DNA of 32,194 bases from Elusimicrobiota bacterium (GTDB lineage: Bacteria > Elusimicrobiota > Elusimicrobia > UBA1565 > UBA9628): NCBI GenBank assembly GCA_003151975.1, contig PLZD01000033.1, positions 1-32,194 on the forward strand, given 5' to 3'. Below, piece by piece: positions 13,194 through 32,194 of this stretch. The stretch's first letter is position 1. Every line of letters starts with the position of its first letter. Under the pieces are notes generated by a model. That model was not told the DNA's origin and searched no databases. It worked only from the letters and a program-made list of their open reading frames with translations. Both the position numbers and the translations under genes were made by a program.

Positions 13194-13201
13194 GCGAAAC
13201 G

Positions 13202-13836: not shown

Positions 13837-13837
13837 C

Positions 13838-14959: not shown

Positions 14960-14960
14960 A

Positions 14961-15365
14961 ATGACCAAAGAAAAGAACCACATCTGGGCCACCGGCCGCC
15001 GCAAGACCTCCGTCGCGCAGGTTCGCTTGATCCCCGGCGGCGAGGGCAAAGTCACCATCAATTCCAAGCCCGTCGAGGAGTACTTCCGCGGGACCGACCA
15101 TCAGAAGCGTGACGTCATGTCGCCGATCGTCGCCATCGAGGAAGCCAAAAAGTTCAATTACATCGTCAAGATCATCGGCGGCGGCATCTCCGGCCAGGCT
15201 GGAGCGGCCCGCCACGCGATCGCGCGCGCGCTCGTCAAGCTCGACGAGAAGAACCGCAAGCCGATGCGCGCCGAGGGTTTCTTGACCCGCGACCCGCGCA
15301 TGGTCGAGCGCAAGAAGTCGGGACAGCCGAAAGCCCGCAAACGGTTCCAGTACTCGAAGCGCTAG
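14961..15365 (+). CDS. rpsI: 30S ribosomal protein S9
   Basis: A 134-residue small-subunit protein. It shows ATGRRKTSVAQVRL, the central GGGISGQAGAARHAIARAL and the C-terminal GFLTRDPRMVERKKSGQPKA. The terminus FQYSKR is the conserved tail whose last residues contact P-site tRNA. It is co-transcribed with rplM and ends shortly before a strong intrinsic terminator. Confidence 0.97.
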   Translation: MTKEKNHIWATGRRKTSVAQVRLIPGGEGKVTINSKPVEEYFRGTDHQKRDVMSPIVAIEEAKKFNYIVKIIGGGISGQAGAARHAIARALVKLDEKNRKPMRAEGFLTRDPRMVERKKSGQPKARKRFQYSKR

Positions 15366-15384
15366 ACCGCATCCGCGCTCAGAA

Positions 15385-15425
15385 AACGGTCCCGTGCGCG
15401 CAACGCACGGGACCGTTCTATTTTG
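15385..15425 (+). terminator. Intrinsic terminator of rplM-rpsI
   Basis: Perfect 14-bp arms (AACGGTCCCGTGCG at 15385-15398, CGCACGGGACCGTT at 15404-15417) surround a CGCAA loop and are followed by CTATTTTG. It begins 20 bases after the rpsI stop. Confidence 0.9.
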
Positions 15426-15443
15426 TATCCTTCAATTAAGAGC

Positions 15444-15749
15444 ATGGAAAAGATCAAGATCCGGGGCTTGGCGCGCGTCGGTGCTTGGATTCTGGGTCTC
15501 TGGGGCGGCCTCGTCGCCTGCAAGGCCGTTTACGATCTGTTCTTCGGCGGCGAGCCCGAGGCCAATCTCTACGCGCCTCAGAAGTGGGCCTTCGTGACCC
15601 AAGAGCAGTGGCGGCGCTACGCGGGCTTCGAGCTCGTCTACGGCTTGAGCCTGCTCGCGCTGGCTTGGTATCTGATCAAACTCGGACGCCTCTTGCCGGT
15701 CACGATCTCGCGCGCCAAGCGCGGGCCCGAGTTCTCGCTGTTCGACTAA
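15444..15749 (+). CDS. Small two-helix membrane protein
   Basis: A 101-residue protein starting at ATG 15444 (MEKIKIRGLARV); a TTG at 15423 would only extend it into the terminator tail. Hydrophobic segments lie at about 10-33 (GAWILGLWGGLVACKAVYDL) and about 63-82 (GFELVYGLSLLALAWYLI). The loop between them contains YAPQKWAFVTQEQWRRY. Function unknown. Its stop codon forms part of the probable -10 element of asnB. Confidence 0.65.
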   Translation: MEKIKIRGLARVGAWILGLWGGLVACKAVYDLFFGGEPEANLYAPQKWAFVTQEQWRRYAGFELVYGLSLLALAWYLIKLGRLLPVTISRAKRGPEFSLFD

Positions 15750-15761
15750 ACTTCCAACATG
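15747..15761 (+). promoter_or_regulatory. Possible -10 with leaderless asnB start
   Basis: TAAACT (15747-15752) includes the stop of the previous gene and lies six bases before ATG 15759. No Shine-Dalgarno is present. The hexamer matches the consensus only 4 of 6, but the spacing equals that at 9858 and 18265. Confidence 0.35.
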
Positions 15762-17621: not shown

Positions 17622-17622
17622 T

Positions 17623-18264
17623 ATGGGCATTTTCGATCCGATCCTTTTATGGTGGCACCGCGGCAAGGTCCGCGGCAAGATGGACCGCGTGTTCTCGCGC
17701 GGGCGCGATCCGTACGGCTACGACGGCCGCTCGGCGTATGAGACGCAGCGGTTGGACGCCATGGCGCAAGCCGTGGGCTTTCATCGCTTTGCGGACGCGC
17801 TCGAGGTCGGCTGCGCCGAGGGCGCCTTCACCGAGCGTCTGGCCGCCTGCGCCGACCGCTTGACGGCCGTGGACATTTCGACGGTGGCCCTCTCGCGCGC
17901 AAAGGAGCGCCTCAAGGGCAAGGCCGGCGTCGACTTCGTCGAGGCCGACGTGCGCGAATGGTCGCCGCCCGCGGGTCGCCGCTACGGCCTCATCGTGCTG
18001 GGCGACGTCCTTTATTACATCGACAAGCCGATGGTCCGCGACATTTTCGAGAAGACCTTTCCGCGGATCAGTTCGTGGCTGGAGCCCGGCGGCCGGCTGA
18101 TGCTGGCGCACGCTTTCGTGGGTCCAAAGGAGCTCGCCCACCGAACGGGCTTTCGCGAGCGCTTCGAGACGCAGGGCTTGAAGCTCGTGTCCGAGGCGCC
18201 GGTCGGCGCCGAAGCCGGTCCGGTCCGCTGCCTGATCTCCGTCCTGGAATCTGTTCGAAAATAG
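17623..18264 (+). CDS. Class I SAM-dependent methyltransferase (NodS-like)
   Basis: A 213-residue protein. The SAM-binding loop is ALEVGCAEGAFTERLA (about 64-79), followed by LTAVDISTVAL with the acidic ribose contact. FVEADVREW gives the adenine side, and YGLIVLGDVLYYID is the motif IV region. The sequence from FADALEVGC to DVLYYI most resembles NodS-type N-methyltransferases. The acceptor is unknown. The gene starts one base after asnB and should be co-transcribed and coupled, suggesting a joint role in modifying a small molecule or cell-surface compound. Confidence 0.8.
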   Translation: MGIFDPILLWWHRGKVRGKMDRVFSRGRDPYGYDGRSAYETQRLDAMAQAVGFHRFADALEVGCAEGAFTERLAACADRLTAVDISTVALSRAKERLKGKAGVDFVEADVREWSPPAGRRYGLIVLGDVLYYIDKPMVRDIFEKTFPRISSWLEPGGRLMLAHAFVGPKELAHRTGFRERFETQGLKLVSEAPVGAEAGPVRCLISVLESVRK

Positions 18265-18279
18265 TATACTCCCGCCGTG
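18265..18279 (+). promoter_or_regulatory. -10 box with leaderless GTG start
   Basis: TATACT (18265-18270) is followed by six bases (CCCGCC) and then GTG 18277, where transcription should begin. There is no Shine-Dalgarno. Confidence 0.55.
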
Positions 18280-18852
18280 TCCTGGCGTCGAGAAACGGCA
18301 CCGAAGGAGCTCCTTTCGCTGGCGGACGCCGCCGCCGAGTCGTGCCGGGCGGCAGCCCGCTATTTTCGCGAACCCTCCGAACCCGCCGCCGTCTCGACCA
18401 AGAGCCGCTCGCGTGCCCTGCTCGATGCGGTCGCCGCGTTGAAGGCTGTCCTTAAGGCGCGCCCGGCCTCGCCCGAGCGCGAGGATTGGCTCGCGGTGTC
18501 GAAATCCCTGGCCGAACTCGGCGAGAGCGCGGGCCGTGCCGTCGCGCAGGCCAAGCTTTATGAAGTGTCGCGCCAGCCGCGGCTGATCGCGATGGCGCAG
18601 GCGTTGAAGGAGGCCGCCGAAGAGCTCGCGGCGGCTTTGCGCCGGGGTTTGAGCGCCGAGCGCCTCGCGCTCGCCAAGCGCTTGGCGTCGAGCGCCGTCG
18701 AGGCGGCGCGCCGGGCGCGCGGGGATTCCCTGGCCGGTGCCGGGGTGGTCGAGGGACTCAAGGATCAAGAGATCGTGCGCCGCCTCCACGAGGCCGCGGG
18801 CGCCGTCCATGACGCGGCGGATCGTCTGGCCGAGGTCTTGTCCGTAAGATGA
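18277..18852 (+). CDS. Ala-rich helical protein of unknown function
   Basis: A 191-residue protein starting at GTG 18277, unrecognised. It is almost entirely helical and rich in Ala, Glu, Arg and Leu, with heptad-like stretches such as LLDAVAALKAVLKA, QALKEAAEELAAALRR and LAKRLASSAVEAARRAR. The N-terminal ELLSLADAAAESCRAAARYF suggests a four-helix-bundle fold, as in PhoU- or DUF47-like proteins, though I see no metal motif. No signal peptide or membrane helix is present. The 3' end overlaps the 5'-nucleotidase start by ATGA. Confidence 0.6.
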   Translation: MSWRRETAPKELLSLADAAAESCRAAARYFREPSEPAAVSTKSRSRALLDAVAALKAVLKARPASPEREDWLAVSKSLAELGESAGRAVAQAKLYEVSRQPRLIAMAQALKEAAEELAAALRRGLSAERLALAKRLASSAVEAARRARGDSLAGAGVVEGLKDQEIVRRLHEAAGAVHDAADRLAEVLSVR

Positions 18853-20390
18853 GAAACCTGGCGTCGGCCGCGATGCTTGTCGCGGCGCTGTGCGCCGCCG
18901 GCTCGGCAGAGAACATCACGCTCACGATCTATCACACGAGCGACATTCACGGCTGGATCATGTCGCGCGCCGCCGTTTGGAACAAGGAAGACCCTAAGCG
19001 CGTCGCGGGGGGATTTGCGGCGCTCTCCAGTCTCGTGCGGGCGACCCGAGGACAAAAGCTGCTGTTCGATTCCGGCGATTGGTTCCAAGGGACTCCCGAG
19101 GGCGCGCTCTCGCGCGGGCAGTCCGTCGTCGATTTGTTCAACGCGGCGGGCTTTGATGCGGTCCTCGTCGGCAACCACGATTTCGACTATGGTCAGGAAC
19201 GCCTTCGGGAACTCGTGACGGCGCTCAAGATGCCGGCGCTCGGCGCCAACATTCGCGACGCCAAGACGCACGCGCGCGTCGCTTGGCTCTCGCCCCCGCT
19301 CATCAAGAAAATCTCCGGCGTACGCGTCGGCATCTTCGGGCTGACTTATCCGGACATGAAGTCCATGGCCTTCGCCAAGAACATCGAGGGCCTCGAGTTC
19401 ACTCGCGCCGTCGACGAGGCCAGGCTGGCGGTGGAGGAACTTCGCAAGAAGGGTGCTACCGTCGTCATCGCGCTCACGCATTTGGGCTTCGAGTCTCCCG
19501 AGATGGGTCAGTTCGAGGGAGACCAGACCTTGGCGCGTGAGGTCCCGGGCATCGATGTCATCATGGGCGGCCACACGCACAAGTTCATCAAGGAGCCTCC
19601 CCGCGTCAACGGCGCGCTGATCACCGAGCCCGGCATAGGACTTACGGCCGTCGACAAGGTGACGCTCGAGATCGACCCGAAGACCAAGAGGGCCGTCTCG
19701 TCCAAGGGCGAGCTCGTGAACTTGTGGATCGACCGTACCGGCGAGGACCCGGGGATCCTGAAAACGGTTCGCGCCGACCAGGCGGAGGCCGACCGGGTCT
19801 TCAGCATGGTCATCGCGACCGCCGCCGAGACGCTCGACCGGAGCCGCGACTCAGAAAGCGCGATGGGAGACTGGTTCACCGACTGCGTGCGTGCGTGGTC
19901 CGGGGCGGACATCGGCTTCACGAACGGCGCCAGCATCCGCGGCGGCATCCCGGTCGGGCCCGTCACCTTGCGCACGATCTACAACATCATGCCCTACGAC
20001 AACCGCATGGTCAAGCTGACGATGACCGGCGCCCAGATTCAAGAGACGATCGACCACGGCGCGGGCCTGGGTTGGGAGATGCTTCAGGAATCGGGGGCCG
20101 AATTTTCCTACAATAGAGGCCGACCTGAGGGCCGCCGCATCTCGAAGCTTGAGATCGGAGGCAAGACGGTCGACCCGACGGCGTCGTACACTCTCGCGAC
20201 CAACGATTTTATCGTGAAGGGAGGGGAGAGCTTCACTTCGTTTAGTCGGGCCAAGCAGGAGTTCTCGGACGAGCTGGTGCGCGACGTGATCCGGCGCTGC
20301 GCCGAGAAGGACCGGCTGATTAAGGCCCCGCCGAGGGGCCGCATGATCTCGTTGGAGGACAACGGTGGTACTGAAAAACGCGCGCGCTAA
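18849..20390 (+). CDS. Exported 5'-nucleotidase / metallophosphatase (UshA-like)
   Basis: A 513-residue protein that should remove 5' phosphates from nucleotides outside the cytosol. Residues 1-20 are a signal peptide ending in GSA. The metallophosphatase domain shows IYHTSDIHGW (Asp32, His34), LLFDSGDWFQG (Asp77), VGNHDFDYG (Asn109, His110), IALTHLGFES and MGGHTHKF, which together give the two-metal site. The C-terminal 5'-nucleotidase domain has FTNGASIRGGIPVGPVTL and the nucleoside-stacking region YNIMPYDNRMVKLTMTG. It overlaps both neighbours, by 4 bases with the helical protein and 26 bases with the HAD phosphatase. Its place just before a deoxyribose-phosphate microcompartment operon suggests nucleotide salvage. 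Confidence 0.9.
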   Translation: MRNLASAAMLVAALCAAGSAENITLTIYHTSDIHGWIMSRAAVWNKEDPKRVAGGFAALSSLVRATRGQKLLFDSGDWFQGTPEGALSRGQSVVDLFNAAGFDAVLVGNHDFDYGQERLRELVTALKMPALGANIRDAKTHARVAWLSPPLIKKISGVRVGIFGLTYPDMKSMAFAKNIEGLEFTRAVDEARLAVEELRKKGATVVIALTHLGFESPEMGQFEGDQTLAREVPGIDVIMGGHTHKFIKEPPRVNGALITEPGIGLTAVDKVTLEIDPKTKRAVSSKGELVNLWIDRTGEDPGILKTVRADQAEADRVFSMVIATAAETLDRSRDSESAMGDWFTDCVRAWSGADIGFTNGASIRGGIPVGPVTLRTIYNIMPYDNRMVKLTMTGAQIQETIDHGAGLGWEMLQESGAEFSYNRGRPEGRRISKLEIGGKTVDPTASYTLATNDFIVKGGESFTSFSRAKQEFSDELVRDVIRRCAEKDRLIKAPPRGRMISLEDNGGTEKRAR

Positions 20391-20961
20391 AGTCGAGCAT
20401 TACTGGACCAACACCAAGAAATTCCTGGCCGCGATGAGCGTCTGGGGCCTCGTGTTCAGCGTGGTCACGATCACGCACCTGGGCGTCGCCTTCGACTACG
20501 ACGACACTCTGGTCAATTCGCAGGCGGCCTACAGCAAGGCGCTCGCCAATTCCCAGGAGGCATACTCCGAGGGGTTCTGGAACATCGTCAACACGAGCTA
20601 CGACCTCGAAAAGCCAAAGATCATCCCGTACTCCCTGGCTTGGGTTTTGCGAGTCTTCGGCTTCAGGATCGCCATCATCACGGCCCGGCCCGCGATCAAC
20701 GCCGAGGCCCTCAAGAAAGAATGGCGGCATCTCGTCTCGCGCGGCTACTTCATCTTCGCCAGCGACAAGACCGGCAAGGCGGGCATCCTGCAGAACGGGA
20801 ACTACGTGCTGTTCTTCGGCGATTCGGACTCGGATATTCAGGAAGCCAGGAGCGCGCGCGTCTTCCCGATCCGAATCCGCCGCAGCAAGAAATCTATCTA
20901 TAAAGAGGACTACAATCCAGGCTCGATGCACGAGCTGGTGATCCCGCTGTCTGAATATTGA
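20365..20961 (+). CDS. HAD phosphatase resembling class B acid phosphatase (AphA-like)
   Basis: A 198-residue protein starting at GTG 20365 inside the nucleotidase gene. The HAD motif I FDYDDTLVN (Asp44, Asp46) matches the DxDDT form of class B acid phosphatases. Motif II is IITARPA, and motif IV is LFFGDSDSDIQEARSA. The end, RIRRSKKSIYKEDYNPGSM then a terminal SEY, follows the AphA C-terminus closely. AphA-type enzymes dephosphorylate 3' and 5' nucleotides in the periplasm. Residues about 23-41 form a hydrophobic segment that could be an uncleaved signal or anchor. Being coupled to the 5'-nucleotidase, it probably serves the same salvage step. The promoter of the BMC operon begins inside its stop codon region. 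Confidence 0.8.
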   Translation: MVLKNARAKVEHYWTNTKKFLAAMSVWGLVFSVVTITHLGVAFDYDDTLVNSQAAYSKALANSQEAYSEGFWNIVNTSYDLEKPKIIPYSLAWVLRVFGFRIAIITARPAINAEALKKEWRHLVSRGYFIFASDKTGKAGILQNGNYVLFFGDSDSDIQEARSARVFPIRIRRSKKSIYKEDYNPGSMHELVIPLSEY

Positions 20962-21040: not shown

Positions 21041-21823
21041 ATGGCTTCTTCCCTGCGCAAGCCGCTGATTGCCGGTAATTGGAAGATGCACCTGACTCTG
21101 GCCGAGTCCGTCGCCTTGGCCAAGGCCGTCAAGGACGGCTCCGCCAACGCTCCCGGCGAGGTCGCCGTCTTCGCGCCCTTCACCGCGCTCTCGGTGGTCG
21201 CAGAAGTCCTCAAGGGCAGCCCAGTGCGCCTCGGCGCCCAGGACCTGCACTGGGAGACGCACGGCGCCTACACCGGCGAAGTTTCCGCCAATCAGATCAA
21301 AGACGTCGGCTGTCAGATGACGCTCATCGCCCACTCCGAGCGCCGCCGGCTGTTCCACGAGACCGACGAGAACGTCAACAAGAAGCTCAAAGCCGCTTTT
21401 GCTGCGGGCTTGGTCCCCGTGCTCTGCGTCGGCGAGACGCTCGAGGAGCGCGAAGCTCAGCGCACGTTCAAAGTTTTGCAGACGCAGTTAGAAGAGGGGC
21501 TGAAAGGCTTCGCGCCGGCGGCGCTCGCGCCGCTGGTCATCGCCTACGAGCCGGTCTGGGCGATCGGTACGGGCAAGACCGCCACGCCCGACCAGGCGCA
21601 GGAAGCGCACCTCTTCATTCGCAAGACTTGCGCGCGGCTTTACGGCGAGGCGTGGGCGTCCGGACTTCGCATCCTTTACGGCGGCTCGGTCACGCCCGAG
21701 AACGTCGACACGCTCATGGCCCAGCCCGACGTCGACGGAGCGTTGGTCGGAGGCGCGAGCCTCAAAGTCCCGGGGTTCATCCGCATCATTCAATTCCAAT
21801 TGCCGGCCGGAGCCAAGCGCTAG
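21041..21823 (+). CDS. tpiA: Triose-phosphate isomerase
   Basis: A 260-residue glycolytic enzyme interconverting glyceraldehyde 3-phosphate and dihydroxyacetone phosphate. It has AGNWKMHL (Asn and Lys of the active site), IAHSERRRLF (the catalytic His) and AYEPVWAIGTGKTA (the catalytic Glu and flexible loop). LYGGSV and GALVGGASL bind phosphate. It leads the BMC operon from the promoter at 20958, and its TAG shares one base with the GTG of pduL. Aldolase DeoC at the other end makes glyceraldehyde 3-phosphate, so this isomerase would feed that product into central metabolism. It may also be the cell's only TpiA. Confidence 0.96.
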   Translation: MASSLRKPLIAGNWKMHLTLAESVALAKAVKDGSANAPGEVAVFAPFTALSVVAEVLKGSPVRLGAQDLHWETHGAYTGEVSANQIKDVGCQMTLIAHSERRRLFHETDENVNKKLKAAFAAGLVPVLCVGETLEEREAQRTFKVLQTQLEEGLKGFAPAALAPLVIAYEPVWAIGTGKTATPDQAQEAHLFIRKTCARLYGEAWASGLRILYGGSVTPENVDTLMAQPDVDGALVGGASLKVPGFIRIIQFQLPAGAKR

Positions 21824-22446
21824 TGGACGCCGCCAAGCTCGCGCAGGAGATCGCCAAACGCATGGACCGCTCCAAGACTCCCATCCCCGTCGGCATCTCG
21901 AACAGGCATTGCCATCTCACGGAAGAGCACTTCAAGATTTTGTTCGGGGCGAGCGCCGAGCCCAAAAAGATCAAGGACATCAAGCAGCCCGGTTTCTGGG
22001 CCGCCGACGAGGTCATCGAGGTCAAGGGGCCGAAGGGCTCGATCAAGAAAGTGCGGCTCGTCGCTCCTTATCGCGCGAACACGCAGATCGAGCTGGCCTG
22101 GACCGACGCGCACGCCATCGGCGTCAAGCCTCCGGTGCGTGAGTCCGGCGACGTGAAAGGTTCTGCCGGCGCTTTGCTGATCGGCCCCGCGGGCCAAGTC
22201 GAGATCAAGGAAGGCGTCATCATCGCTTTGCGCCACGTGCATTTCGCCCCCGCGGAAGCCGCCGCGCTCGGCATCAAGAGCGGCGAGATGCTGCGCCTGC
22301 GCTGCGGCACGGGCGGGGGCCGCTCGACGGTCTTCGAGGACTGCATCGCGCGCGTCTCGGACAAATACTCTTTGGAGCTGCACCTCGACACCGACGAGTC
22401 GTACGCCGCCGGCGTCAAGAACGGAGATAACGCGTACATAGTGTAG
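21823..22446 (+). CDS. pduL: Phosphate propanoyltransferase / phosphotransacylase PduL
   Basis: A 207-residue enzyme converting acyl-CoA and phosphate into acyl phosphate, recycling CoA inside the compartment. It has the PduL zinc signatures GISNRHCHLTEEHF (His29, His31) and IALRHVHFAPAEA (His138, His140). GVKPPVRESGDVKGSAGALL and DTDESYAAGV are also family segments. The GTG start at 21823 overlaps the tpiA stop by one base. It yields an N-terminal amphipathic helix (DAAKLAQEIAKRM) like the encapsulation helix of Salmonella PduL, whereas ATG 21862 would lose it. The likely substrate is acetyl-CoA. Confidence 0.93.
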   Translation: MDAAKLAQEIAKRMDRSKTPIPVGISNRHCHLTEEHFKILFGASAEPKKIKDIKQPGFWAADEVIEVKGPKGSIKKVRLVAPYRANTQIELAWTDAHAIGVKPPVRESGDVKGSAGALLIGPAGQVEIKEGVIIALRHVHFAPAEAAALGIKSGEMLRLRCGTGGGRSTVFEDCIARVSDKYSLELHLDTDESYAAGVKNGDNAYIV

Positions 22447-22564: not shown

Positions 22565-22861
22565 ATGAACGCACTCGGAATGATCGAAACTCGGGGTCTG
22601 GTCGCCTGCATCGAGGCCGCCGACGCCGCCGTGAAAGCCGCCGACGTGAAGGTCGTGGGTTATGAAAAGGTGGGCACCGGTTTGGTTACCGTGCTCTTCC
22701 GCGGCGAAGTCGCCGCCTGCAAGGCTTCCTGCGACGCGGGCGCCGCCGCCGCTCAGAAAGTCGGCGAGCTCATCGCGGTGCACGTGATCCCGCAGCCGCA
22801 CCCGGACCTCGAAGGCAAGATGCCGATCTCCTTGCCCGAGCACCTCAACCGCAAGCGTTAG
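22565..22861 (+). CDS. BMC-H hexameric shell protein
   Basis: A 98-residue protein forming the hexagonal tiles of the compartment shell. The Pfam BMC signature is clear: [56 protein letters not shown] and [12 protein letters not shown]. The length matches PduA/EutM-type proteins. A good AGGAG stands seven or so bases before the ATG. The segment of pore-lining residues falls around KVGTGLV. It is the only BMC-H gene in the window, and a long hairpin just before it may set its high expression relative to the enzymes. Confidence 0.95.
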
Positions 22862-22874: not shown

Positions 22875-23186
22875 ATGATTTTTGCTCGCGTGACGGGGAA
22901 CGTCGTCTGCACGCAGAAGGACGACAAGCTCGTCGGCTCGAAGCTCATGCTCGTTCAGCCGGTCGACCTGGCGAATCAGGCGAAGGGGAATCCCATCGTC
23001 GCCATCGACGCGGTCGGAGCCGGTGAGGGGGAATTGGTCCTGCTCGTTCAGGGCTCCTCCGCCCGCCAGACCACGAAGACCAAGGATAACCCGGTCGACG
23101 CGGTCATATTCGCGATCGTCGACACCGTGGAGCAGAACGGCAAGAACGTCTTCAAGAAGAGGACCGACGCCCATGCAAGCCGATGA
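22875..23186 (+). CDS. BMC-P pentameric shell vertex protein (EutN/CcmL family)
   Basis: A 103-residue protein that caps shell vertices as a pentamer. It has the EutN/CcmL pattern MIFARVTGNVVCTQKDDKL, GSKLMLVQPVDL, NPIVAIDAVGAGEGELVLLV and QGSSARQTT, with VDAVIFAIVD near the end. It starts 13 bases after the BMC-H stop, and its 3' end overlaps the aldehyde dehydrogenase start by 14 bases. It is one of three BMC-P genes in the operon, and the three differ at their C-termini. Confidence 0.93.
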   Translation: MIFARVTGNVVCTQKDDKLVGSKLMLVQPVDLANQAKGNPIVAIDAVGAGEGELVLLVQGSSARQTTKTKDNPVDAVIFAIVDTVEQNGKNVFKKRTDAHASR

Positions 23187-24606
23187 GATAGCGCGCATCG
23201 TCGGCGAGGTGCTCAAGCGCCTCGAGAGCTCCAACGAGCTGTCGGCCAAGATCGACGCGCCCGTCGCGTCCTGCTCGGGCGTCATCCACGCCAGCGTGGA
23301 CTTGGCGGTCAAGACCGCTCAAAGGGCGCAGGAAGTGTTCCAGAACCTGGGCCTCGAGAAGCGCCGCGAGATCATCAAGGCGATGCGCAAGGTCTCGATC
23401 GCCAACGCCGAGCGCATGGCCAAGATGGCCGTCGAGGAGACGGGCCTCGGGCGCGTGGCCGACAAGGTGCAGAAGAACCTCATCTGCGCGTTGAAGACTC
23501 CCGGCGTCGAGGACCTGCAGAGCAAGGCGTTCACGGGCGACAAGGGCCTGACCCTCGTCGAGTGGGGCCCGTACGGTGTTGTGGCTGCGATTACTCCCTC
23601 AACGAATCCTGTGGCCACGATCATCAATAACTCGATCTCGATTTTGGCGGCGGGCAACGCAGTGGTCTTCGCGCCGCACCCCGCGTCGGCCAAGTGCACC
23701 TCCGAGATGATGCGCTTGCTGTGCGACGCGATCGTCTCGGCGGGCGGGCCCGCGGGCCTGATCACGACGGTGGCCCCGGCCTCGCAGGAGATGACCAAGG
23801 CCTTGCTCGCTCACCCGGGCACGCGCGTCAACATGGTGACCGGCGGCCCCGCCATCGTCAAGGTGGCGATGACCGTCGGCAAGACCTGCAAGACGATCGC
23901 CGCCGGCCCCGGCAATCCGCCCGCCGTCGTCGACGAGACGGCCATTTTCCCGAAGTGCGCCTCCGACATCATCTTCGGCGCGTCTTTCGACAACAACGTT
24001 TTGTGCACGGCCGAGAAAGAGGTCATCGTGACGCGCGCGGCGCGCGAGCGGTTTCTGGCCGCGATGCGCTCGGATTCGCGCGCTTTCGAGCTTTCTCCCA
24101 CCCAAGTCGATCAGGTCGTCAAGCTCGTCATCAAAGAGGGCGGCAAGGGCTGCAAGGATCCTGTGCTCAACCGCGACTATGTCGGCAAGGACGCCGCCGT
24201 TATCGCCAAGGGCATCGGCCTGGAAGTCCCCGCGTCGACCCGCCTCTTGTGGGCTGAGGTCGGCAACGACCATCCTCTGGTCTGGACCGAGCAGTTGATG
24301 CCGCTTCTGCCGGTGACCGTGTCCGACGACGTCGATTCCGCCATCGAACTGGCTTACGCCGTCGAGGGCGAGAGCCACCACACGGCTTCGATGCACTCGA
24401 TGAACGTCGATCATCTGACGCGGATGGCGCGGCGCATGCAGTGCTCGATTTTCGTGAAGAACGCGCCGAACTTGTACGGACTGGGAATGGGCGAAGGCTA
24501 TGCCACCATGTCGATCGGAACGCCGACGGGCGACGGCCTGACCAAGGCGTCGCACTTCGCGCGGCCGCTGCAGTGCAGTCTCGTCGGATATTTTAGAATC
24601 GCCTGA
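23173..24606 (+). CDS. CoA-acylating aldehyde dehydrogenase (PduP/EutE-like)
   Basis: A 477-residue enzyme turning an aldehyde, NAD and CoA into acyl-CoA, here probably acetaldehyde to acetyl-CoA. ATG 23173 gives an N-terminal amphipathic helix (MQADEIARIVGEVLKRLESS), the encapsulation peptide of BMC enzymes, then a variable linker to about 35. The dehydrogenase core has GPYGVVAAITPSTNP, GNAVVFAPHP, VTGGPAIV and AGPGNPPAVVD. The catalytic Cys278 is in GASFDNNVLCTAEKEVIV. TLPTxTG-like GMGEGYATMSIGTPTGDGL closes it. This is the signature aldehyde-handling enzyme of the compartment. The start overlaps the BMC-P gene by 14 bases. Confidence 0.94.
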   Translation: MQADEIARIVGEVLKRLESSNELSAKIDAPVASCSGVIHASVDLAVKTAQRAQEVFQNLGLEKRREIIKAMRKVSIANAERMAKMAVEETGLGRVADKVQKNLICALKTPGVEDLQSKAFTGDKGLTLVEWGPYGVVAAITPSTNPVATIINNSISILAAGNAVVFAPHPASAKCTSEMMRLLCDAIVSAGGPAGLITTVAPASQEMTKALLAHPGTRVNMVTGGPAIVKVAMTVGKTCKTIAAGPGNPPAVVDETAIFPKCASDIIFGASFDNNVLCTAEKEVIVTRAARERFLAAMRSDSRAFELSPTQVDQVVKLVIKEGGKGCKDPVLNRDYVGKDAAVIAKGIGLEVPASTRLLWAEVGNDHPLVWTEQLMPLLPVTVSDDVDSAIELAYAVEGESHHTASMHSMNVDHLTRMARRMQCSIFVKNAPNLYGLGMGEGYATMSIGTPTGDGLTKASHFARPLQCSLVGYFRIA

Positions 24607-24614: not shown

Positions 24615-25166
24615 ATGCAAGCCAATATCGCCGTCGGATTTCTCGAGTCGAACTCGATCGCCAAGGGCATCGAGGCCACCGACGCCATGTGCAAGATGGC
24701 CAACATCAAGCTGGTCAAGACCGCCATCGTGGCCAAGGGCAAGTACATCATCATGATCTCGGGGCCCGTCGGCGAGGTCGAGTCCTCGATGCGCGCCGGC
24801 CGCGAGATATTGGGCAACGTCCTCATCGACGAGGTCTTGATCCGCAACGTGCACTCGCAGGTCTTGGCCGCGCTCGACAAGCGCGTCCCCGTCGAGAAGC
24901 TGGAAGCCGTCGGCATCATCGAGACTAAGGAAGCCATCGCGACAGTGCGCGCGGCCGACGCGGCGGCTAAGGCCGCGAGCGTGCATCTTTTGGAAGTAAA
25001 GACCGTGGTCGGCGGCGGCAAGGGCTACGTCACGATGACGGGAGAGGTCGGCGCCGTGCGGGTCGCGGTCGCGGCCGGCATCCAAGCTGTGCCCGAGAGC
25101 AATCGCATCAGCCACGTCGTCATCTCGCAGGCCGACGCTCAGCTGCTCGCGACGGTCGGAAAGTAA
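24615..25166 (+). CDS. BMC-T tandem-domain shell protein (PduT-like)
   Basis: A 183-residue trimeric shell protein with two fused BMC domains: residues 1-90 (AVGFLESNSIAKGIEATDAM, KLVKTAIVAKGKYIIMIS, GPVGEVESSMRAG) and 91-183 (EAVGIIETKEAIATVRAADA, KTVVGGGKGYVTMTGEVGAV). Overall it resembles PduT, whose Cys38 binds a 4Fe-4S cluster in the trimer pore. At the matching place this protein reads TAIVAKGKY with no Cys, so an iron-sulfur pore is unlikely. GAGG stands seven bases before the ATG, and the gene begins eight bases after the dehydrogenase stop. Confidence 0.9.
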   Translation: MQANIAVGFLESNSIAKGIEATDAMCKMANIKLVKTAIVAKGKYIIMISGPVGEVESSMRAGREILGNVLIDEVLIRNVHSQVLAALDKRVPVEKLEAVGIIETKEAIATVRAADAAAKAASVHLLEVKTVVGGGKGYVTMTGEVGAVRVAVAAGIQAVPESNRISHVVISQADAQLLATVGK

Positions 25167-25203: not shown

Positions 25204-27024
25204 TTGAAAAAGATCGCGTACGCGCTCGCCGCTCTGGTCCTCGCCGCGCCGGCCTCGGCGCGCAGCATTCATGTCGCAAAAGACGGCTCCGGCGTCTACA
25301 AAACGGTCTACGACGCGCTGACTCACGCGGCGGACGGCGACGAGCTCATCGCCGACGACATCGGGAAGGTCGGAGCGGCTATCCAGAAGGATGGAACGGA
25401 TTTCCTCATTAAGGGAATCGTCGCTGGTTCCGCCGCCGAAAAGGCGGGGCTCAAGGCCGGCGACAAGATCGTTCTCATTAACGATCGCGACATCGCGCGC
25501 ATGTCGGTGGAAGACGCGGTTCCCTTGATGCGCGGTAAGCCGGGGACGACGCTCAAGCTTCATATCCAAAAAGTCGGCGACGACGAGGCTCGCCCCGTCG
25601 AGATCGTGCGCCTGCCCTTGGTCATGCCGATCAGCGACCGGAAGTCCAAGATCACGGCCGCATTGACCTTGGGCGACAACGACGCGTACGCCAGGCTTTT
25701 GAAGGACTTCGCCGCCGGCGGAGACATGCGCGCTCAGCAGGAGCTGGCCTTCGATTATTACTACGGCGCTCCAGCGATGAACATCGAGAAGGATGAGCGC
25801 GAGGGCGCGCGCCTGGCCAAAGCGGCCGTCGACCACGGGGGCGGCAAGGAGATCCAGAGATTGTGGGGCTCGATGCTGACCGACGGCGTCGGCGTCGCCA
25901 AAGACCCCGAGAAGGGAGCGAAGTGGCTGCAGCGGGCGATGGACGCCGGCGACGCGTGGGCGACCTATCTTCTCGGGAGAAGCTACGAATACGGCCTCGG
26001 CGTGCCGCGCAGCACCAAAGAGGCATTGGCTTTGTACGAGAAGGCCGTCAAAGCCGGAGCGACTCCGACGGCTCAGGAAGCGCTCGACAAGCTGAAAGCC
26101 TCCCAGAATCAAACCGCCGCTCGTCCCGCGGCCGCTCAGTCCGCTCCGGCGCCCGCGCCTGCGCCGCAGGCCGCGCTTTCTCGCGAAGAGATCAAGCAGA
26201 TGATGTCCGAGGCCCTGCACGAGCAGGCCGCGCAAAAGCCGGCGGCGGAGACTCCCGCGGAGAAATCCTCCGAAGTCGACGCTCCGAATTATTCCAAGAA
26301 GACGCGGCCCGACGACCTAGCCGTCGTCATCGGCATCGAGAAATACCAGAATCTTCCCGCGGCGAGCTTCGCCGAACGCGACGCGACGGCCGTGCGCGCG
26401 CACTTGGTCGCGCTGGGGTATCCCGAGCGGAATATTTTTTCCTTGATAGGGCCGCAGGCCACCAAGTCCGCGTTCACCAAGGAGCTTGAGGCGCGGCTGA
26501 AAAAACTCGTCAAGCCCGACTCGACCGTTTTCGTCTACTACTCGGGCCACGGCGCGCCGGACCCTAAATCGGGCGCGGCGTACCTCGTACCCTACGACGG
26601 CGACCCGGAATTCCTCGACGAGACGGCGTACTCGCTGAAGCGGCTTTACGCGAAGCTCGGCGCGCTCAAGGCCAGGCGCGTGATCGTGGCGCTCGACTCG
26701 TGCTTCTCCGGCGCCGGCGGCCATTCGGTGCTGGCCAAGGGCGTGCGCCCTCTGGTTACCAGGATCGAGGCCGTCGAGCCCTCGGGCCCGGTCGCGGCGC
26801 TGACCGCGTCGTCCGGCGGAGAGATCTCGGGTGCCCTCGACGAGCAAGGCCACGGCTTGTTCACTTACTATTTCCTCAAGGGACTCAACGACGGCGACAT
26901 GACGCTCGGCGCGCTGCACGGCTACCTCAAGTCGCACGTGGAAGACGAAGCGCGCCGCCACAACCGCGATCAAACGCCCCAGCTTATCGGCGCGGGCGCG
27001 GGGGAGACGCCTCTCGACAAATGA
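25204..27024 (+). CDS. Exported caspase-like protease with PDZ and Sel1 repeats (caspase 1)
   Basis: A 606-residue protein starting at TTG 25204; no stronger start is near. A signal peptide (1-19, IAYALAALVLAAPASA) is followed by a PDZ-like domain (about 64-135, FLIKGIVAGSAAEKAGLKAG). Sel1-like repeats follow (about 175-285, with GARLAKAAVDHG, KGAKWLQRAMDAG and YLLGRSYEYGLGV). A Pro/Ala linker contains the helix SREEIKQMMSEALHE (326-340). The C14 caspase-like domain (about 370-600) carries His449 in YYSGHGAP and Cys500 in ALDSCFSGAGG. A protease that cuts after basic or acidic residues is expected from the family, but specificity is not readable here. It lies inside the BMC operon and overlaps rpiB by ATGA. 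Confidence 0.88.
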   Translation: MKKIAYALAALVLAAPASARSIHVAKDGSGVYKTVYDALTHAADGDELIADDIGKVGAAIQKDGTDFLIKGIVAGSAAEKAGLKAGDKIVLINDRDIARMSVEDAVPLMRGKPGTTLKLHIQKVGDDEARPVEIVRLPLVMPISDRKSKITAALTLGDNDAYARLLKDFAAGGDMRAQQELAFDYYYGAPAMNIEKDEREGARLAKAAVDHGGGKEIQRLWGSMLTDGVGVAKDPEKGAKWLQRAMDAGDAWATYLLGRSYEYGLGVPRSTKEALALYEKAVKAGATPTAQEALDKLKASQNQTAARPAAAQSAPAPAPAPQAALSREEIKQMMSEALHEQAAQKPAAETPAEKSSEVDAPNYSKKTRPDDLAVVIGIEKYQNLPAASFAERDATAVRAHLVALGYPERNIFSLIGPQATKSAFTKELEARLKKLVKPDSTVFVYYSGHGAPDPKSGAAYLVPYDGDPEFLDETAYSLKRLYAKLGALKARRVIVALDSCFSGAGGHSVLAKGVRPLVTRIEAVEPSGPVAALTASSGGEISGALDEQGHGLFTYYFLKGLNDGDMTLGALHGYLKSHVEDEARRHNRDQTPQLIGAGAGETPLDK

Positions 27025-27470
27025 AGATCGTCATCGGCTCGGACCACGGCGGATTTTCGGGCAAGGAGTTCTGCAAGAAGTGGCTGCAGAAAGCCGGCCA
27101 CGAGGTCGCCGACTTCGGCTGCTACTCGACCGACCCGGTGGATTATCCCGACATCGCCCAGCTCGTCGCGGAAGCCGTCGTGCGCCGCGAGTACGACAAG
27201 GGCGTCCTGCTTGACGGCTTCTCGGGCGCCGTGTGTCTCGCGGCCAACAAAGTCCCGGGCGCGCGCGCGGTCGCGGCCTACAACTCGGTCTCGGCGCGGT
27301 TTGCCGCCGCGCACGACGATTGCAACATCTTGTGCCTCGGCGGCAAGACGCACGGCGAGGTCGCGCTCGCTGAGATGCTCCAAGTTTTTTTCTCCACGCA
27401 GTACGAGGGCGGCCGGCACGACGGGCGGCTGGCGAAAATCACGGCCATCGAGAGGAAATACTCGCGATGA
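27021..27470 (+). CDS. rpiB: RpiB-family sugar-phosphate isomerase with altered active site
   Basis: A 149-residue LacA/RpiB-family protein. Family features are IGSDHGGFSGKEFCKKW, VDYPDIAQLVAEAV, LAANKVPGARAVAA, AHDDCNILCLGG and the C-terminal QYEGGRHDGRLAKI then TAIE. RpiB normally interconverts ribose 5-phosphate and ribulose 5-phosphate. The usual catalytic loop CGTGxG is here DGFSGAV (65-71): Asp65 replaces the Cys66 of E. coli RpiB, and the Glu used by the mycobacterial enzyme is absent. Cys72 lies nearby. The true substrate may therefore differ. It overlaps caspase 1 and caspase 2 by ATGA on each side, so it is translated together with the proteases. RpiB plus DeoC is the hallmark of SPU-type BMC loci. 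Confidence 0.88.
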   Translation: MKIVIGSDHGGFSGKEFCKKWLQKAGHEVADFGCYSTDPVDYPDIAQLVAEAVVRREYDKGVLLDGFSGAVCLAANKVPGARAVAAYNSVSARFAAAHDDCNILCLGGKTHGEVALAEMLQVFFSTQYEGGRHDGRLAKITAIERKYSR

Positions 27471-28933
27471 AAAGCTCCGTCTTCGTCGTGTTGGCCGTGT
27501 CCCCCATGCTTGCGGGCTGCGCTTCGACGATTTTGGTGGGGCCACCAGACCATATGATCGCGGCCCAGCGCATCACTGTGCCATCGGTCCAGCCCGGTGA
27601 GCCGACGTTCTGCATTGCCTCTTACGAAGGATCCTTGCTTGAACTCGACTATCAGTATTTGGCGTCAAGGAGGTTCCGGGATCTGAGGCTATTGACCCAT
27701 GAGCATCCGGATGGGGAGGCCTGCGAGGTCTTGCTCAAGTTGCGCGGCCTCAAGACCTTTTCGAGGGCGGCGCAGACAATCGGGGCCTATTCGGCGTTCA
27801 CGCAGGATCTTATTTGGGAGGGCTCGGCTGCTCCCAGTTTTTTCTCGAATGATGTTTCCGGGATACAACTTCTGGGGCCGCATTTGCGCCAAGAGTTCCA
27901 GCCGGGCAGCGAGGGGCTCGCGAAGCTAAAGGCAAGCCAAGCGCGAGGGCACCGGCCGACTGCCGAGGATATCGAGCATTTTGCTGGAAGCGGAATGATC
28001 TCAGAGAACGCTTGGCGTCCGAGCCTGGGTGTCTCGATAGCCAATGTTAGATTGGGCGGCGAGATGGATGAGGATGAGGCTGCTCCCGAATCTGCCCCCA
28101 TTTCGGTTCAAAATCTTCCCGAGAGACCGCGCAAGAGCAAGACCGAGTCGGAGCCCGTCGACGAGCAGGCCCAGGCGGACCAAGGCGCGCCCATCGCCCC
28201 TGACGTCGATGAGCCGCCGGCCGCGGCCGCAGCCAAGCCGCACGCCTACGCCGTCGTTATCGGCGTCAGCAAGTACCGGCACAAGCTGCCCGCCGCCGAT
28301 TTCGCCGACGCGGACGCCCAGTCCGTCGCGCGCTACTTGCGCGCGCTCGGCTATCAGGACGCCAACATCGCGACGTTGATCAACGACGAGGCTTCCAAGG
28401 GCGACTTTGAAAAATATTTCGAGCGCTGGCTGCCCAACCACGCCGACGCGGGCTCGGAGGTTTTCGTCTATTACTCCGGCCACGGCGCGCCCAACGTCAA
28501 GAACGGCGATGCTTATCTCGTGCCTTACGACGGAGATCCGACCTATATCGCTGAAACCGGCTATCCGCTCAAGAAAATGTACGAGCAGTTGGCCAAGCTC
28601 CCCGCGTCGAAAATCACCGTGGTCATGGATTCGTGCTTCTCGGGCGCGGGCGGGCGCTCGGTGATCGCGGCCGGCGCGCGGCCGCTGGTCACGGTCACGC
28701 AGTCGGTCATTCCGGCTAACATCACCGTCTTGGCGGCCTCGGCCGGCGACCAGATCTCAAACAGCTATCAGGATAAGGGCCACGGCCTGTTCACCTACTA
28801 TTTCCTCAAAGGGCTCAGAGAGAAGGGCGACGACATGCGGGCGGTCTACGAATTCCTCAAGCCCGAGGTCAGCGGCTACGCGCGCCGCGAACTCAACGCC
28901 GATCAGGACCCGCAGTGGAGGCAAGGAAAGTGA
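27467..28933 (+). CDS. Caspase-like lipoprotein (caspase 2)
   Basis: A 488-residue protein. A lipoprotein signal peptide ends in LAGC, with Cys18 the lipid attachment site, so the mature protein should sit on a membrane outside the cytosol. An N-terminal domain of unknown type (about 45-180) follows, with EPTFCIASYEGS, RRFRDLRLLTHEHP, YSAFTQDLIWEGSA and LKASQARGHRP. An acidic, Pro/Ala-rich linker runs to about 257. The caspase-like domain (about 259-480) has YAVVIGVSKYR, His339 in YYSGHGAP, YLVPYDGDPTYI and Cys390 in VMDSCFSGAGGRS. It overlaps rpiB by ATGA and the next lipoprotein by GTGA. It is a close relative of caspase 3 (29532), with the same domain order. Confidence 0.88.
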   Translation: MKSSVFVVLAVSPMLAGCASTILVGPPDHMIAAQRITVPSVQPGEPTFCIASYEGSLLELDYQYLASRRFRDLRLLTHEHPDGEACEVLLKLRGLKTFSRAAQTIGAYSAFTQDLIWEGSAAPSFFSNDVSGIQLLGPHLRQEFQPGSEGLAKLKASQARGHRPTAEDIEHFAGSGMISENAWRPSLGVSIANVRLGGEMDEDEAAPESAPISVQNLPERPRKSKTESEPVDEQAQADQGAPIAPDVDEPPAAAAAKPHAYAVVIGVSKYRHKLPAADFADADAQSVARYLRALGYQDANIATLINDEASKGDFEKYFERWLPNHADAGSEVFVYYSGHGAPNVKNGDAYLVPYDGDPTYIAETGYPLKKMYEQLAKLPASKITVVMDSCFSGAGGRSVIAAGARPLVTVTQSVIPANITVLAASAGDQISNSYQDKGHGLFTYYFLKGLREKGDDMRAVYEFLKPEVSGYARRELNADQDPQWRQGK

Positions 28934-29535
28934 GGAGCGCGACCTTGCTTTGGCCCGCGGCGCTTCTCGGCACGGCCGGGTGCTTTGGCGGCGGCGCCGT
29001 CGATCTGCGCTATCGCCCGAGCGGCACGGCCGTGTCTCTCTCCCACGAAGGCACGCCCGCGTTCTACATCGTCCGCGTCGACGAGCGCGCGGGAGGCATC
29101 GTGCTCGCGGCGGGCGAGCGGCCCAAGCTTCTGCTCAAGCGCCCGGTCCAGGAGTCGCTGCGCGAGGCGCTCACCGTCGAGCTCGGCCGCTTGGGGCTGC
29201 CGGCCGCCAAAGAGCTCGATAAGGCGGACGCGCGCCTCAGCGCGGCCATAGGCGGCGAGATCACCGATCAGTCCCGGAGCTACAGCGCGGCCGTGGGCCT
29301 CGTGCGCCTGACGATCAGCTTGTCCATTGAGGACCGTCGCGGCGCGCCGTTGTGGGAAGGAGAGCTCAAGGGCGTCGGCGACATCGCCAAGACAGGATCG
29401 GTCGCGGCGGCGGCCAACGCGGCTCTGGCCGACGCCATGGCGGGTCTCGGTCCTTTGCTTACTCAGGATAGGGTCGTCGCGCGGATTTTTTCTGCTAGGG
29501 CAGACCAGGAACCACATCGGAGGCAGGGACAATGA
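28930..29535 (+). CDS. YajG-like lipoprotein
   Basis: A 201-residue protein starting at GTG 28930, which overlaps the caspase 2 stop. The signal peptide ends in a lipobox-like GTAGC (Cys about 18). The mature domain resembles YajG/DUF-type outer-membrane lipoproteins: RPVQESLREALTVELGRLGL, then ADARLSAAIGGEITDQS and LTISLSIEDRRGAPLWEGEL, and ANAALADAMAGLGPLL. That alternation of a long helix and beta strands is all the evidence. Nothing catalytic is visible. It stands between two caspase lipoproteins, with 4-bp overlaps on both sides, and could be their partner, inhibitor or substrate. Confidence 0.65.
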   Translation: MRSATLLWPAALLGTAGCFGGGAVDLRYRPSGTAVSLSHEGTPAFYIVRVDERAGGIVLAAGERPKLLLKRPVQESLREALTVELGRLGLPAAKELDKADARLSAAIGGEITDQSRSYSAAVGLVRLTISLSIEDRRGAPLWEGELKGVGDIAKTGSVAAAANAALADAMAGLGPLLTQDRVVARIFSARADQEPHRRQGQ

Positions 29536-30995
29536 AGATCGAAAGAATCGCCGGCCTCGTTGCTCTCTCCGCACTGCCCTTGCTCGCGAGTTGCGCGGGC
29601 CCGATCTTGGTGGGACCTCCGGGACGGATAGCGGAGGTCCAGCCCATCCGATCTGGCCAGCCCTCTCCCAGCGAGCCGACGTTTTGCGTCGCCTCCTATG
29701 AGGGATCGACGTATGGTTGGGACATTTTCGACTTGGCGCAAACGAGGCATGATGCTGACGTTCGTTATCGGAGATTCCGCGATCTGCGGCTGCTGACTCG
29801 CGAACATCCGGAGGCTGATGCCTGCGATGTTCTGCTGAAGATTCGCGCCCACGGCACCGTCGCAACCTCGCCGATGGACCTCGAGGCCTATTCGGCGTTC
29901 ACTCAAGAACTTGTTTGGCAGGGCTCCGCGAAGAGTGGATTCTTCAGCGACGGCGGCGGCGTGGCTCTCCTGGCGCCGCACCTGCAGCGGGAGTTCCAGC
30001 CTAGCGGGAATGGATTCGCGCAGCTCAAAGCCAGCCAGGCGCGGGGGCATCGGCCCTCGGCGCAGGACATCGTGCGCTTCGCCGGCAGCGGTTTGGTTCC
30101 GGAGGCGGTTTCGAAGTCGGCGAAGTTTCTAAGCCTTAAGGGGGGCGGTGCGAGGGAAGGCGGCGAAGCGTTGCCGGCGGCCGCCGGCGCGTCCGAGGTC
30201 TCATCGGCGACCGCCCCTGAGCGTTCGAAGGCGCAGCAAAGTCCGCCCGCGGCATCCGATCTCGACGATCTTCCTGCCGCCGGGGCGGCCCAACCGCACC
30301 GCTACGCCGTCGTCGTCGGCATCGAGAAATACCGTGAGAAACTACCGAACGCCGATTTCGCCGAGAGCGACGCGAAGCTCACGGCCGAGTACTTCAAGCG
30401 TGTGCTCGGAATCCCGGACGAGAACCTGGCTTTGCTGGTCGGCGACCGCGCCACGCGCACCGACCTTGAAAAATATTTCGACCGCTGGCTGCCCAACCGC
30501 GTCGAGGCCGGCGACGAAGTCTTCGTCTATTTCTCGGGCCACGGCGCGCCCGATCCGGCCAAGGGCGACGCGTATCTGCTTCCGTACGACGGAGATCCGA
30601 CCTACATCGAGGAGACCGGCTATTCGCTCAAAAATTTGTATGCGCGCTTGGCCAAACTTCCGGCCAAGAGGATCGTCGTGGCGATGGACTCGTGCTTTTC
30701 CGGCGCCGGCGGGCGCTCGGTGCTGGCGCGCGGCGCGCGCCCGCTAGTCACCGTGAGCGCCGCCTCCGATGTCCCCGGCAAGCTCACCGTCATCGCGGCG
30801 TCCGCGGGCAACGAGATCTCGAATTCTTATGAGGAGAAGGGCCACGGCTTGTTCACCTATTTCTTCTTGAAGGGCCTCAAAGAGAAGGGCGCCGATTTCC
30901 GCGCGGTTTACGATTACCTGAAGCCTCAAGTCGCGCGCGAGGCGCGGCGGGGCTACAACGCCGATCAGACGCCGCAGTGGGCGGGCGGACAATGA
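29532..30995 (+). CDS. Caspase-like lipoprotein (caspase 3)
   Basis: A 487-residue paralogue of caspase 2. The lipobox LLASC puts lipid on Cys21. The same N-terminal domain follows (about 49-185): EPTFCVASYEGS, RRFRDLRLLTREHP, YSAFTQELVWQGSA, LKASQARGHRP. The linker is Ser/Ala/Pro-rich. The caspase domain (about 255-480) has YAVVVGIEKYRE, His337 in YFSGHGAP, YLLPYDGDPTYI and Cys388 in AMDSCFSGAGGRS, and ends in a NADQTPQW motif shared with caspase 2. The linkers of the two paralogues are unrelated, so they diverged there fastest. Start ATG 29532 overlaps the YajG-like stop, and its own stop overlaps the BMC-P start. This ties it directly to the compartment genes. Confidence 0.88.
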   Translation: MKIERIAGLVALSALPLLASCAGPILVGPPGRIAEVQPIRSGQPSPSEPTFCVASYEGSTYGWDIFDLAQTRHDADVRYRRFRDLRLLTREHPEADACDVLLKIRAHGTVATSPMDLEAYSAFTQELVWQGSAKSGFFSDGGGVALLAPHLQREFQPSGNGFAQLKASQARGHRPSAQDIVRFAGSGLVPEAVSKSAKFLSLKGGGAREGGEALPAAAGASEVSSATAPERSKAQQSPPAASDLDDLPAAGAAQPHRYAVVVGIEKYREKLPNADFAESDAKLTAEYFKRVLGIPDENLALLVGDRATRTDLEKYFDRWLPNRVEAGDEVFVYFSGHGAPDPAKGDAYLLPYDGDPTYIEETGYSLKNLYARLAKLPAKRIVVAMDSCFSGAGGRSVLARGARPLVTVSAASDVPGKLTVIAASAGNEISNSYEEKGHGLFTYFFLKGLKEKGADFRAVYDYLKPQVAREARRGYNADQTPQWAGGQ

Positions 30996-31276
30996 AGCTG
31001 GCCAAGGTCGTCGGTCGCGTCTTCTGCACGCGCCAGGATCCCGCCATGGACGGCAAGACGATGCTTTTGATCCAGCCGCTGCGCTGGGAGGACGAGGCGC
31101 CGGTCGGCGACCCGATCGTGGCCGTCGACGCGGTCGGGGCCGGTTCGTCCGAGAAGGTTTTTTGGGTCGCCTCGCGCGAGGCCGCCGTCGCGTTCAAAGA
31201 TGTCCCGCCCGTGGACGCGGCGATCGTCGGGATCGTCGAAGGACATCAAGTCAGGGAGTTCCGGTCGAAAGGCTGA
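30992..31276 (+). CDS. BMC-P pentameric shell protein, second copy
   Basis: A 94-residue EutN/CcmL-family protein starting at ATG 30992 inside the caspase 3 stop. It has KLAKVVGRVFCTRQDPAM, GKTMLLIQPLRW, VGDPIVAVDAVGAGSSEKVF and VDAAIVGIVEG. The sequence differs clearly from the first copy at 22875, so the vertices may be mixed or specialised. A start at 30977 would only extend it into the caspase gene. A 52-base gap follows before the third copy. Confidence 0.93.
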   Translation: MKLAKVVGRVFCTRQDPAMDGKTMLLIQPLRWEDEAPVGDPIVAVDAVGAGSSEKVFWVASREAAVAFKDVPPVDAAIVGIVEGHQVREFRSKG

Positions 31277-31328: not shown

Positions 31329-31625
31329 ATGTTCATCGCGGAAGTCGTGGGCAACGTTTGGGGCACCCGAAAAGCGCCTCAACTGGCGAACAAAAAGCTG
31401 CTGCTCGTGCGGCCTATCGACCCGCTGACGGAGAAGCCGTTGGGCGACGCGATGATGGCAGTCGACGCCGGGATCGGTTCGGGGCCGGGCAGCGTCGTGC
31501 TGGTGCTCGATGAGGGCGGCTCGGCGCGGACCGTGCTCGGCGACAAGGACGCGCCGGTGCGCACGATCATCGTGGGCATCGTGGATTCGGTGATTTCGGG
31601 CGGCAAGGTGAAAAAGTATGCGTGA
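31329..31625 (+). CDS. BMC-P pentameric shell protein, third copy
   Basis: A 98-residue EutN/CcmL-family protein: [58 protein letters not shown] and [16 protein letters not shown]. Its [12 protein letters not shown] type is the form often found next to aldehyde enzymes. TAAAAT lies four bases before the ATG, and an AAAAAGG run gives a possible Shine-Dalgarno. Its last eight bases overlap the deoC start. Confidence 0.93.
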
Positions 31626-32194
31626 ACAAGAGCTGCGAAAGATCGTCGAAGAGGTCGTAAGGACGCTGGCCGAGAAGGGATATTTGAAGGAGGGCGACTG
31701 CGGTTGCGACGCGCCCAAGAAAGGCTCGGGACCCATGGCCACCACGATAGGCTCGTCGGGAAAGATTTTCTCCGACGACTGGCAGCGCCCCAAATCCAAG
31801 ATTTCCCCTCAACCGTCCAGCGGGGAGCACGAGCACACGGGCGGGGCGTCCTGCCCGCAGTGCGAAAACGTCGCCAAACTCGGCGCCAACGACCTCAAGG
31901 CCATCGGCGCCGACCGCATCGCGGTCTGCAGCCCGACGAAGAAAGGCTCGACGGCCGCCAAGTTCGTGGATCACACTCTCTTGAAGCCCAATGCCACGCA
32001 GGAAGAGGTCGCCAAGCTCTGCGAGGAGGCCAAGGCTTTCTGCTTCGCCTCGGTCTGCATCAATCCCTCTTACGTTTCCTTCGCGGCCCAGCTGCTGCGC
32101 GGCTCGGGCGTGAAGGTCTGCACGGTCGTGGGCTTTCCTCTGGGCTCGACGACGCCGACGGTCAAGGCGATCGAGGCGCGCGACGCCATCGCCA
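31618..32194 (+). CDS. deoC: Deoxyribose-phosphate aldolase, BMC-targeted (partial, runs off right edge)
   Basis: An open frame of 192 codons from ATG 31618 without a stop. It should cleave 2-deoxy-D-ribose 5-phosphate to acetaldehyde and glyceraldehyde 3-phosphate. Residues 1-23 ([20 protein letters not shown]) form an amphipathic helix like BMC encapsulation peptides. A flexible linker holds two Cys pairs, DCGCD (28, 30) and CPQC (79, 82). The DeoC domain starts at about 115 with [20 protein letters not shown], then [14 protein letters not shown] and [15 protein letters not shown], the strand and phosphate-side motifs of the family. The Schiff-base lysine lies beyond the edge. This enzyme identifies the compartment as deoxyribose-phosphate based. 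Confidence 0.95.

Follow-up and report, generated by a model that had tools for sequence, protein, structure and literature searches.

Exported caspase-like proteases encoded within a sugar-phosphate microcompartment operon of Elusimicrobiota

Caspase genes between two shell genes

The window analysed here, i.e. the first 32,194 bases of the 35,205-base contig PLZD01000033.1 of an Elusimicrobiota bacterium (assembly GCA_003151975.1), contains an operon for a bacterial microcompartment (BMC), in which three genes for exported caspase-like proteases (CASP1, CASP2 and CASP3), rpiB and a gene for a small lipoprotein lie between the BMC-T gene and the second BMC-P gene (Table 1). Pfam and NCBIfam profiles identify a DeoC-type aldolase (TIGR00126, 295.6 bits against a cut-off of 117.3) and an RpiB isomerase together with BMC-H, BMC-T and BMC-P shell proteins, an acylating aldehyde dehydrogenase (ALDH) and a PTAC-type phosphotransacylase. 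Loci of the sugar-phosphate utilization (SPU) type are defined by DeoC and RpiB encoded with shell genes (PMC4207490, PMC8217296), and judged by its sequence the operon is a standard SPU locus of Elusimicrobiota, with predicted sugar-phosphate processing. Like the published SPU loci it unites DeoC, RpiB, acylating ALDH, PduL, triosephosphate isomerase (TIM), BMC-H, BMC-T and three BMC-P proteins, and what sets it apart from them is the insertion, between BMC-T and BMC-P, of the exported caspases and the small lipoprotein.

All genes of this block were found where the first-pass annotation had placed them, except that two start codons had to be corrected: the best start of the small lipoprotein is GTG at 28930 rather than 28915, and the second BMC-P begins with ATG at 30992 rather than 30977. 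The ATGA or GTGA overlaps reported for every junction from the first caspase to BMC-P are all present as 4-nt NTGA overlaps, at the five junctions into rpiB, CASP2, the small lipoprotein (GTGA), CASP3 and the second BMC-P; BMC-T and CASP1 are separated by a gap of ~37 bp. Overlaps between the stop codon of one gene and the start codon of the next thus join the caspases, rpiB and a shell gene into a single unit.

Active sites, export signals and partner domains of the caspases

The Peptidase_C14 domain is recognized by Pfam in all three proteins (49.8, 68.1 and 54.8 bits for CASP1, CASP2 and CASP3, cut-off 21.4), and the His-Cys dyads assigned to them earlier proved exact (Table 1). All three also retain the Asp two residues before the catalytic Cys (C-2) and an upstream Asp in a FAxxDA motif, which the profile alignment matches to a conserved Asp of metacaspases. 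Acidic positions near the metacaspase active site predict a preference for Arg/Lys, hence the slot caspases probably cut after these residues. The same preference has been described for orthocaspases (PMC6426788). In the AlphaFold2 model of CASP2, residues 254-488 adopt the caspase fold (Z ~22 to 6w8s), with Z about 21-22 to metacaspase-4 and MALT1 and a Foldseek E-value of 7e-14 for MALT1; the likeness to these two is structural only, since identity is 18-22% and domain partners and location differ. The proteins score 74-80 bits with the model of the EACC1-associated caspases (NF047832, NCBIfam), under its cut-off of 140, and are not members of that family.

CASP1 has an SPI-type signal peptide, while CASP2 and CASP3 have lipoboxes, and in view of these export signals we consider the caspases unlikely to be cargo of the compartment. 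As seen in the CASP2 model and in the sequences, a disordered linker joins the N-terminal part to the protease domain and ends in an SDxD-type motif. This motif immediately precedes the caspase domain in 79 of 100 linkers of the family against 1.7 expected from shuffled sequences, a contrast that is descriptive because the 100 sequences are related. Asp-specific self-cleavage at the linker, which resembles a caspase site, was considered and downgraded, given the acidic nature of the predicted S1 positions and the presence of the motif in most sampled paralogs.

With the prokaryotic metacaspases and orthocaspases of the Peptidase_C14 family (PMC3501461, PMC6426788) these proteins share the p20-type domain, the His-Cys dyad, acidic residues close to the active site, an association with Sel1-type repeats and the existence of inactive variants. 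They are unlike them in being exported, lipidated (as predicted) and encoded in overlap with shell genes, and their inactive forms lack the Tyr/Ser swap. Elusimicrobia were listed among the phyla without metacaspases in a 2012 survey (PMC3501461).

The gene at 28930-29535 had been described as encoding a YajG-like lipoprotein, an assignment that we could not establish: its product matches no Pfam family, YajG/Lipoprotein_16 (PF03923) included, at E-values up to 1, and the homologous domain of a relative scores 14.9 with PF03923 against a cut-off of 25. Its predicted fold is that of small outer-membrane lipoproteins of the DUF330/PqiC, HpaA and LptE types, with TM-scores of 0.3-0.6, no family match, and recurrent fusion to caspases as a distinguishing feature. 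Such fusions occur in five relatives (G184, G194, G198, G213 and G214), which ties the separate protein of the window to the caspases. In four genomes (G195, G201, G202 and G209) the gene preceding BMC-P encodes a caspase homolog devoid of both catalytic motifs, SGHG and DSC (L155:9101-10792, L149:5536-7227, L187:9017-10147 and L195:9905-11026), and in G192 a CASP1-type PDZ-Sel1 protein lacks the protease domain.

Conservation of the caspase slot among relatives

In a class-wide search, 118 of 235 genomes proved to contain BMC genes, and ~70 BMC loci were compared, together with 45 named ones that lie mostly on the same contigs. The core order TIM-PduL-H-P-ALDH-T-rpiB-P-P-deoC-H is retained almost throughout, and within the core operon caspases were found nowhere but between BMC-T and the second BMC-P. 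Intact slot caspases are present in 14 genomes: the one studied here (G000), G194-G198, G202, G204, G208-G210, G213 and G214, which make up 13 of the 32 BMC-bearing members of family f1 (genera g1, g3 and g5), and G184 from family f3. Random placement would put slot caspases in 0.47 of these 32 genomes, a figure that cannot be turned into a P-value, as the genomes share descent. The arrangement caspase-rpiB-caspase was also found on a short contig of G207. Nearly all block junctions in the relatives checked are 4-nt ATGA or GTGA overlaps, as in the window; the exceptions are the BMC-T to CASP1 junction of the window and of G197, and rpiB of G192, which has a TTGA start. Binning error is not the cause of the association, as the slot caspases of G204 lie on a complete circular chromosome (CP096137.1; PMC9476967).

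The same operon with a caspase-free slot occurs in families f6, f8, f10, f11, f13 and f15, whose genomes encode few or no caspases, and therefore the caspase module looks like a later, lineage-specific addition to the SPU operon. None of the four SPU loci sampled outside Elusimicrobiota (L205-L208) contains a caspase. Slot caspases are under purifying selection: a simple Nei-Gojobori count, made on a small number of pairs, gives dN/dS values of 0.11 to 0.47 for them and 0.25 for BMC-T; the two pairs of inactive homologs compared have values of 0.17 and 0.5. The recurrence of slot and overlaps in several genera and in a second family strengthens the proposal that the caspases are built into the operon, and rules out chance insertion, on which related BMC loci should have lacked them. 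The pairing of exported caspases with the microcompartment is maintained in at least fourteen genomes, and selection in related species preserves the arrangement. Other genes enter the operon too: in G186 (L061, ~11900-19500) several genes for secreted proteins are inserted between ALDH and BMC-T.

Origin of the slot caspases

The genome (4.64 Mb) encodes 27 caspases, all seemingly exported to judge from their N-termini (by eye); across the family the number varies from 0 to 27. Within this genome alone one cluster at the locus would therefore be unremarkable, so that the relatives decide, and any role of the caspases need not be BMC-specific. In a tree of 39 rows, 18 of 22 slot caspases, that of G184 included, group together in one clade (support 93/94), which also takes in two caspases from outside the slot. 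This main slot clade excludes CASP2 and the G213/G214 pair, CASP1 has a catalytic domain from a paralog lineage different from that of the relatives' slot caspases, and a copy of the slot type is found next to the his operon. A single origin of the slot caspases, tested as one clade of all but CASP1, was rejected (AU P-value 4e-5). This pattern suggests that caspases have long occupied the slot and that others from the genome's own stock have also moved into it.

A second operon with caspases

A further pair of caspases of the same genome (C2:39405-41438) is encoded in an operon spanning positions 3861-15852 of L211 (C2:32001-48000), with the order PreA-like protein (dihydroorotate/dihydropyrimidine dehydrogenase-type), NCS1 nucleobase permease, dihydropyrimidinase, caspase, ALDH and class-III aminotransferase, which probably serves reductive pyrimidine catabolism. 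In G195, whose contig does not contain the whole operon, and in G196, G197, G201, G204 and G205 (L231-L234, L148, L150), caspases have these same neighbours, which makes seven genomes with the one studied here. Some other caspases adjoin glnB/amtB, a gene for a PotC-like permease or hisI (the last by eye). Location in nucleic-acid operons is unsupported as a rule for all caspases, as most others, of this genome or of its relatives, stand alone.

Neighbouring genes

Past deoC the order is a zinc-ribbon-like gene, a second BMC-H and a pilT-like gene. The small zinc-ribbon-like gene (contig ~32613-32932, identified by eye) is present in 36 related loci. The pilT-like gene (also by eye) follows the second BMC-H directly, beyond the window end (contig ~33528-34622); this neighbourhood recurs in 31 loci of several families and may be tied to DNA uptake or twitching.

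Table 1. Features of the microcompartment operon and its upstream neighbours (window positions)
Feature	Position	Strand	Basis and remarks
5'-nucleotidase (Metallophos, 5_nucleotid_C), SPI-type signal peptide	18849..20390	+	Pfam, sequence; adjoins operon upstream, also in many relatives
HAD-superfamily (acid phosphatase-like) protein	20389..20961	+	Pfam below curated cut-off; synteny
TIM	21041..21823	+	Pfam
PduL phosphotransacylase	21817..22446	+	Pfam PTAC
BMC-H shell protein	22565..22861	+	Pfam
BMC-P shell protein, first	22875..23186	+	Pfam EutN_CcmL
Acylating ALDH	23149..24606	+	Pfam Aldedh; N-terminal helix like an encapsulation peptide (by eye)
BMC-T shell protein	24615..25166	+	Pfam, two BMC domains
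CASP1: SPI signal peptide, PDZ, Sel1 repeats, Peptidase_C14	25204..27024	+	TTG start; H449/C500
RpiB isomerase	27021..27470	+	Pfam LacAB_rpiB; ATGA overlap with CASP1
CASP2: lipoprotein caspase, lipobox AGC	27467..28933	+	Pfam; H339/C390
Small lipoprotein	28930..29535	+	GTGA start; in relatives a homologous domain is fused to the N-terminus of slot caspases
CASP3: lipoprotein caspase, lipobox ASC	29532..30995	+	Pfam; H337/C388
BMC-P shell protein, second	30992..31276	+	Pfam; ATGA overlap with CASP3
BMC-P shell protein, third	31329..31625	+	Pfam
DeoC, N-terminal extension	31618..32194, on to ~32610 of contig past window end	+	NCBIfam TIGR00126 on full gene

Discussion

The association of the genes is well supported; their function we infer. 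The function ascribed to SPU loci is nucleic-acid catabolism (PMC8217296, PMC4207490), and the explanation that we tentatively favour, at somewhat less than even confidence, is that a lineage-specific module of exported caspases extends the SPU operon and is co-expressed with it as an outside arm for scavenging nucleoprotein or necromass. The operon would be expressed while the cell scavenges nucleic-acid-rich dead matter. CASP1 would act in the periplasm, and CASP2 and CASP3 as membrane-anchored lipoproteins, helped by the small lipoprotein; outside the cytoplasm they would cut proteins after Arg/Lys, e.g. basic nucleic-acid-binding proteins, and so expose DNA and RNA. The exported 5'-nucleotidase would yield nucleosides, and the cytosolic microcompartment would handle deoxyribose-5-phosphate and the acetaldehyde derived from it. 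The caspases would never enter the compartment, the link being co-regulation of an outside and an inside arm. We prefer a proteolytic outside arm because exported caspases that look active occur in both of the operons that break down nucleic-acid components, in one of them beside an exported 5'-nucleotidase. Extracellular protein degradation has been speculated for some bacterial metacaspases (PMC4933709). Among the roles put forward in the first-pass annotation, acquisition of DNA-derived nutrients is favoured by the 5'-nucleotidase and the pyrimidine operon, while nothing speaks directly for damage sensing or lysis control.

Several observations weigh against this scavenging role. The nucleic-acid theme rests on two operons, and most other caspases of this genome lie outside such operons; no gene for a nuclease was recognized in the operon, and the predicted Arg/Lys specificity rests on two residues. 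Pure digestion leaves unexplained why a dead caspase homolog is retained in four loci. Many relatives have the same microcompartment operon with no caspases, which are therefore not needed for the microcompartment.

An alternative, which we regard as unlikely though a serious competitor, is that the caspases are hitch-hikers, i.e. an expanding exported family that spread by duplication, settled in insertion-tolerant operons, has a general envelope or digestive role with no relation to the microcompartment and gains from its position only expression. The size of the family, the caspases next to glnB/amtB, the PotC-like permease and other genes, and the repeated turnover in the tree (CASP1, CASP2 and the G213/G214 pair outside the main clade, the rejected single origin, the copy beside the his operon) all fit this alternative. 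It accounts poorly, however, for a clade that unites 18 of 22 slot sequences from two families with only two non-slot members, for the same slot and overlaps in relatives, for the persistence of the slot gene as a dead homolog in four genomes, and for the mostly solitary position of the other sampled caspases.

The dead homologs, one pair of which has a dN/dS of 0.17, together with the PDZ and Sel1 domains would also suit envelope sensor or processing proteases: PDZ/Sel1 and lipoprotein caspases, partnered by pseudo-caspases, would perceive a signal from outside or from the envelope and regulate a transporter, or the operon itself, by limited proteolysis, and the SDxD linker motif could be a processing or switch site. 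We consider such control rather improbable, as the slot contains no regulator, sigma factor or receptor and the motif, common to caspases outside BMC loci, is not BMC-specific. It is very improbable that the caspases bring about regulated lysis or programmed death, by which neighbours would gain DNA: caspase homologs are often discussed with programmed death and export would place these at the envelope, but we identified no holin, lysin, gasdermin or toxin gene in the locus, the caspases are embedded in catabolic operons, and 27 copies fit a single suicide switch poorly.

The scavenging role can be stated in a more specific form, which we hold with still less confidence: a type of microcompartment with a dedicated outside arm, in which caspases that are exported, anchored in the membrane, specific for Arg/Lys and co-translated with the shell would, together with the caspase-bearing pyrimidine operon, strip and consume the nucleoprotein of dead cells.

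The first-pass annotation knew of no described link between exported caspases and BMCs, and we found no link between caspases and microcompartments in the literature searched, which comprised main texts; supplementary locus tables may hold caspases that went unremarked. In the main texts of the two SPU reports (PMC4207490, PMC8217296) we found no mention of caspases in SPU loci, and the main text of the BMC catalogue does not mention a caspase or peptidase. Bacterial caspases have mostly been discussed as enzymes of death or stress. Stable links with a microcompartment, through overlapping genes, and in a separate case with pyrimidine catabolism provide a concrete metabolic context for them. 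If the proposed role is correct, an operon for a cytosolic organelle would have incorporated its own envelope-side enzymes, and caspases would serve there in nutrient acquisition rather than in death.

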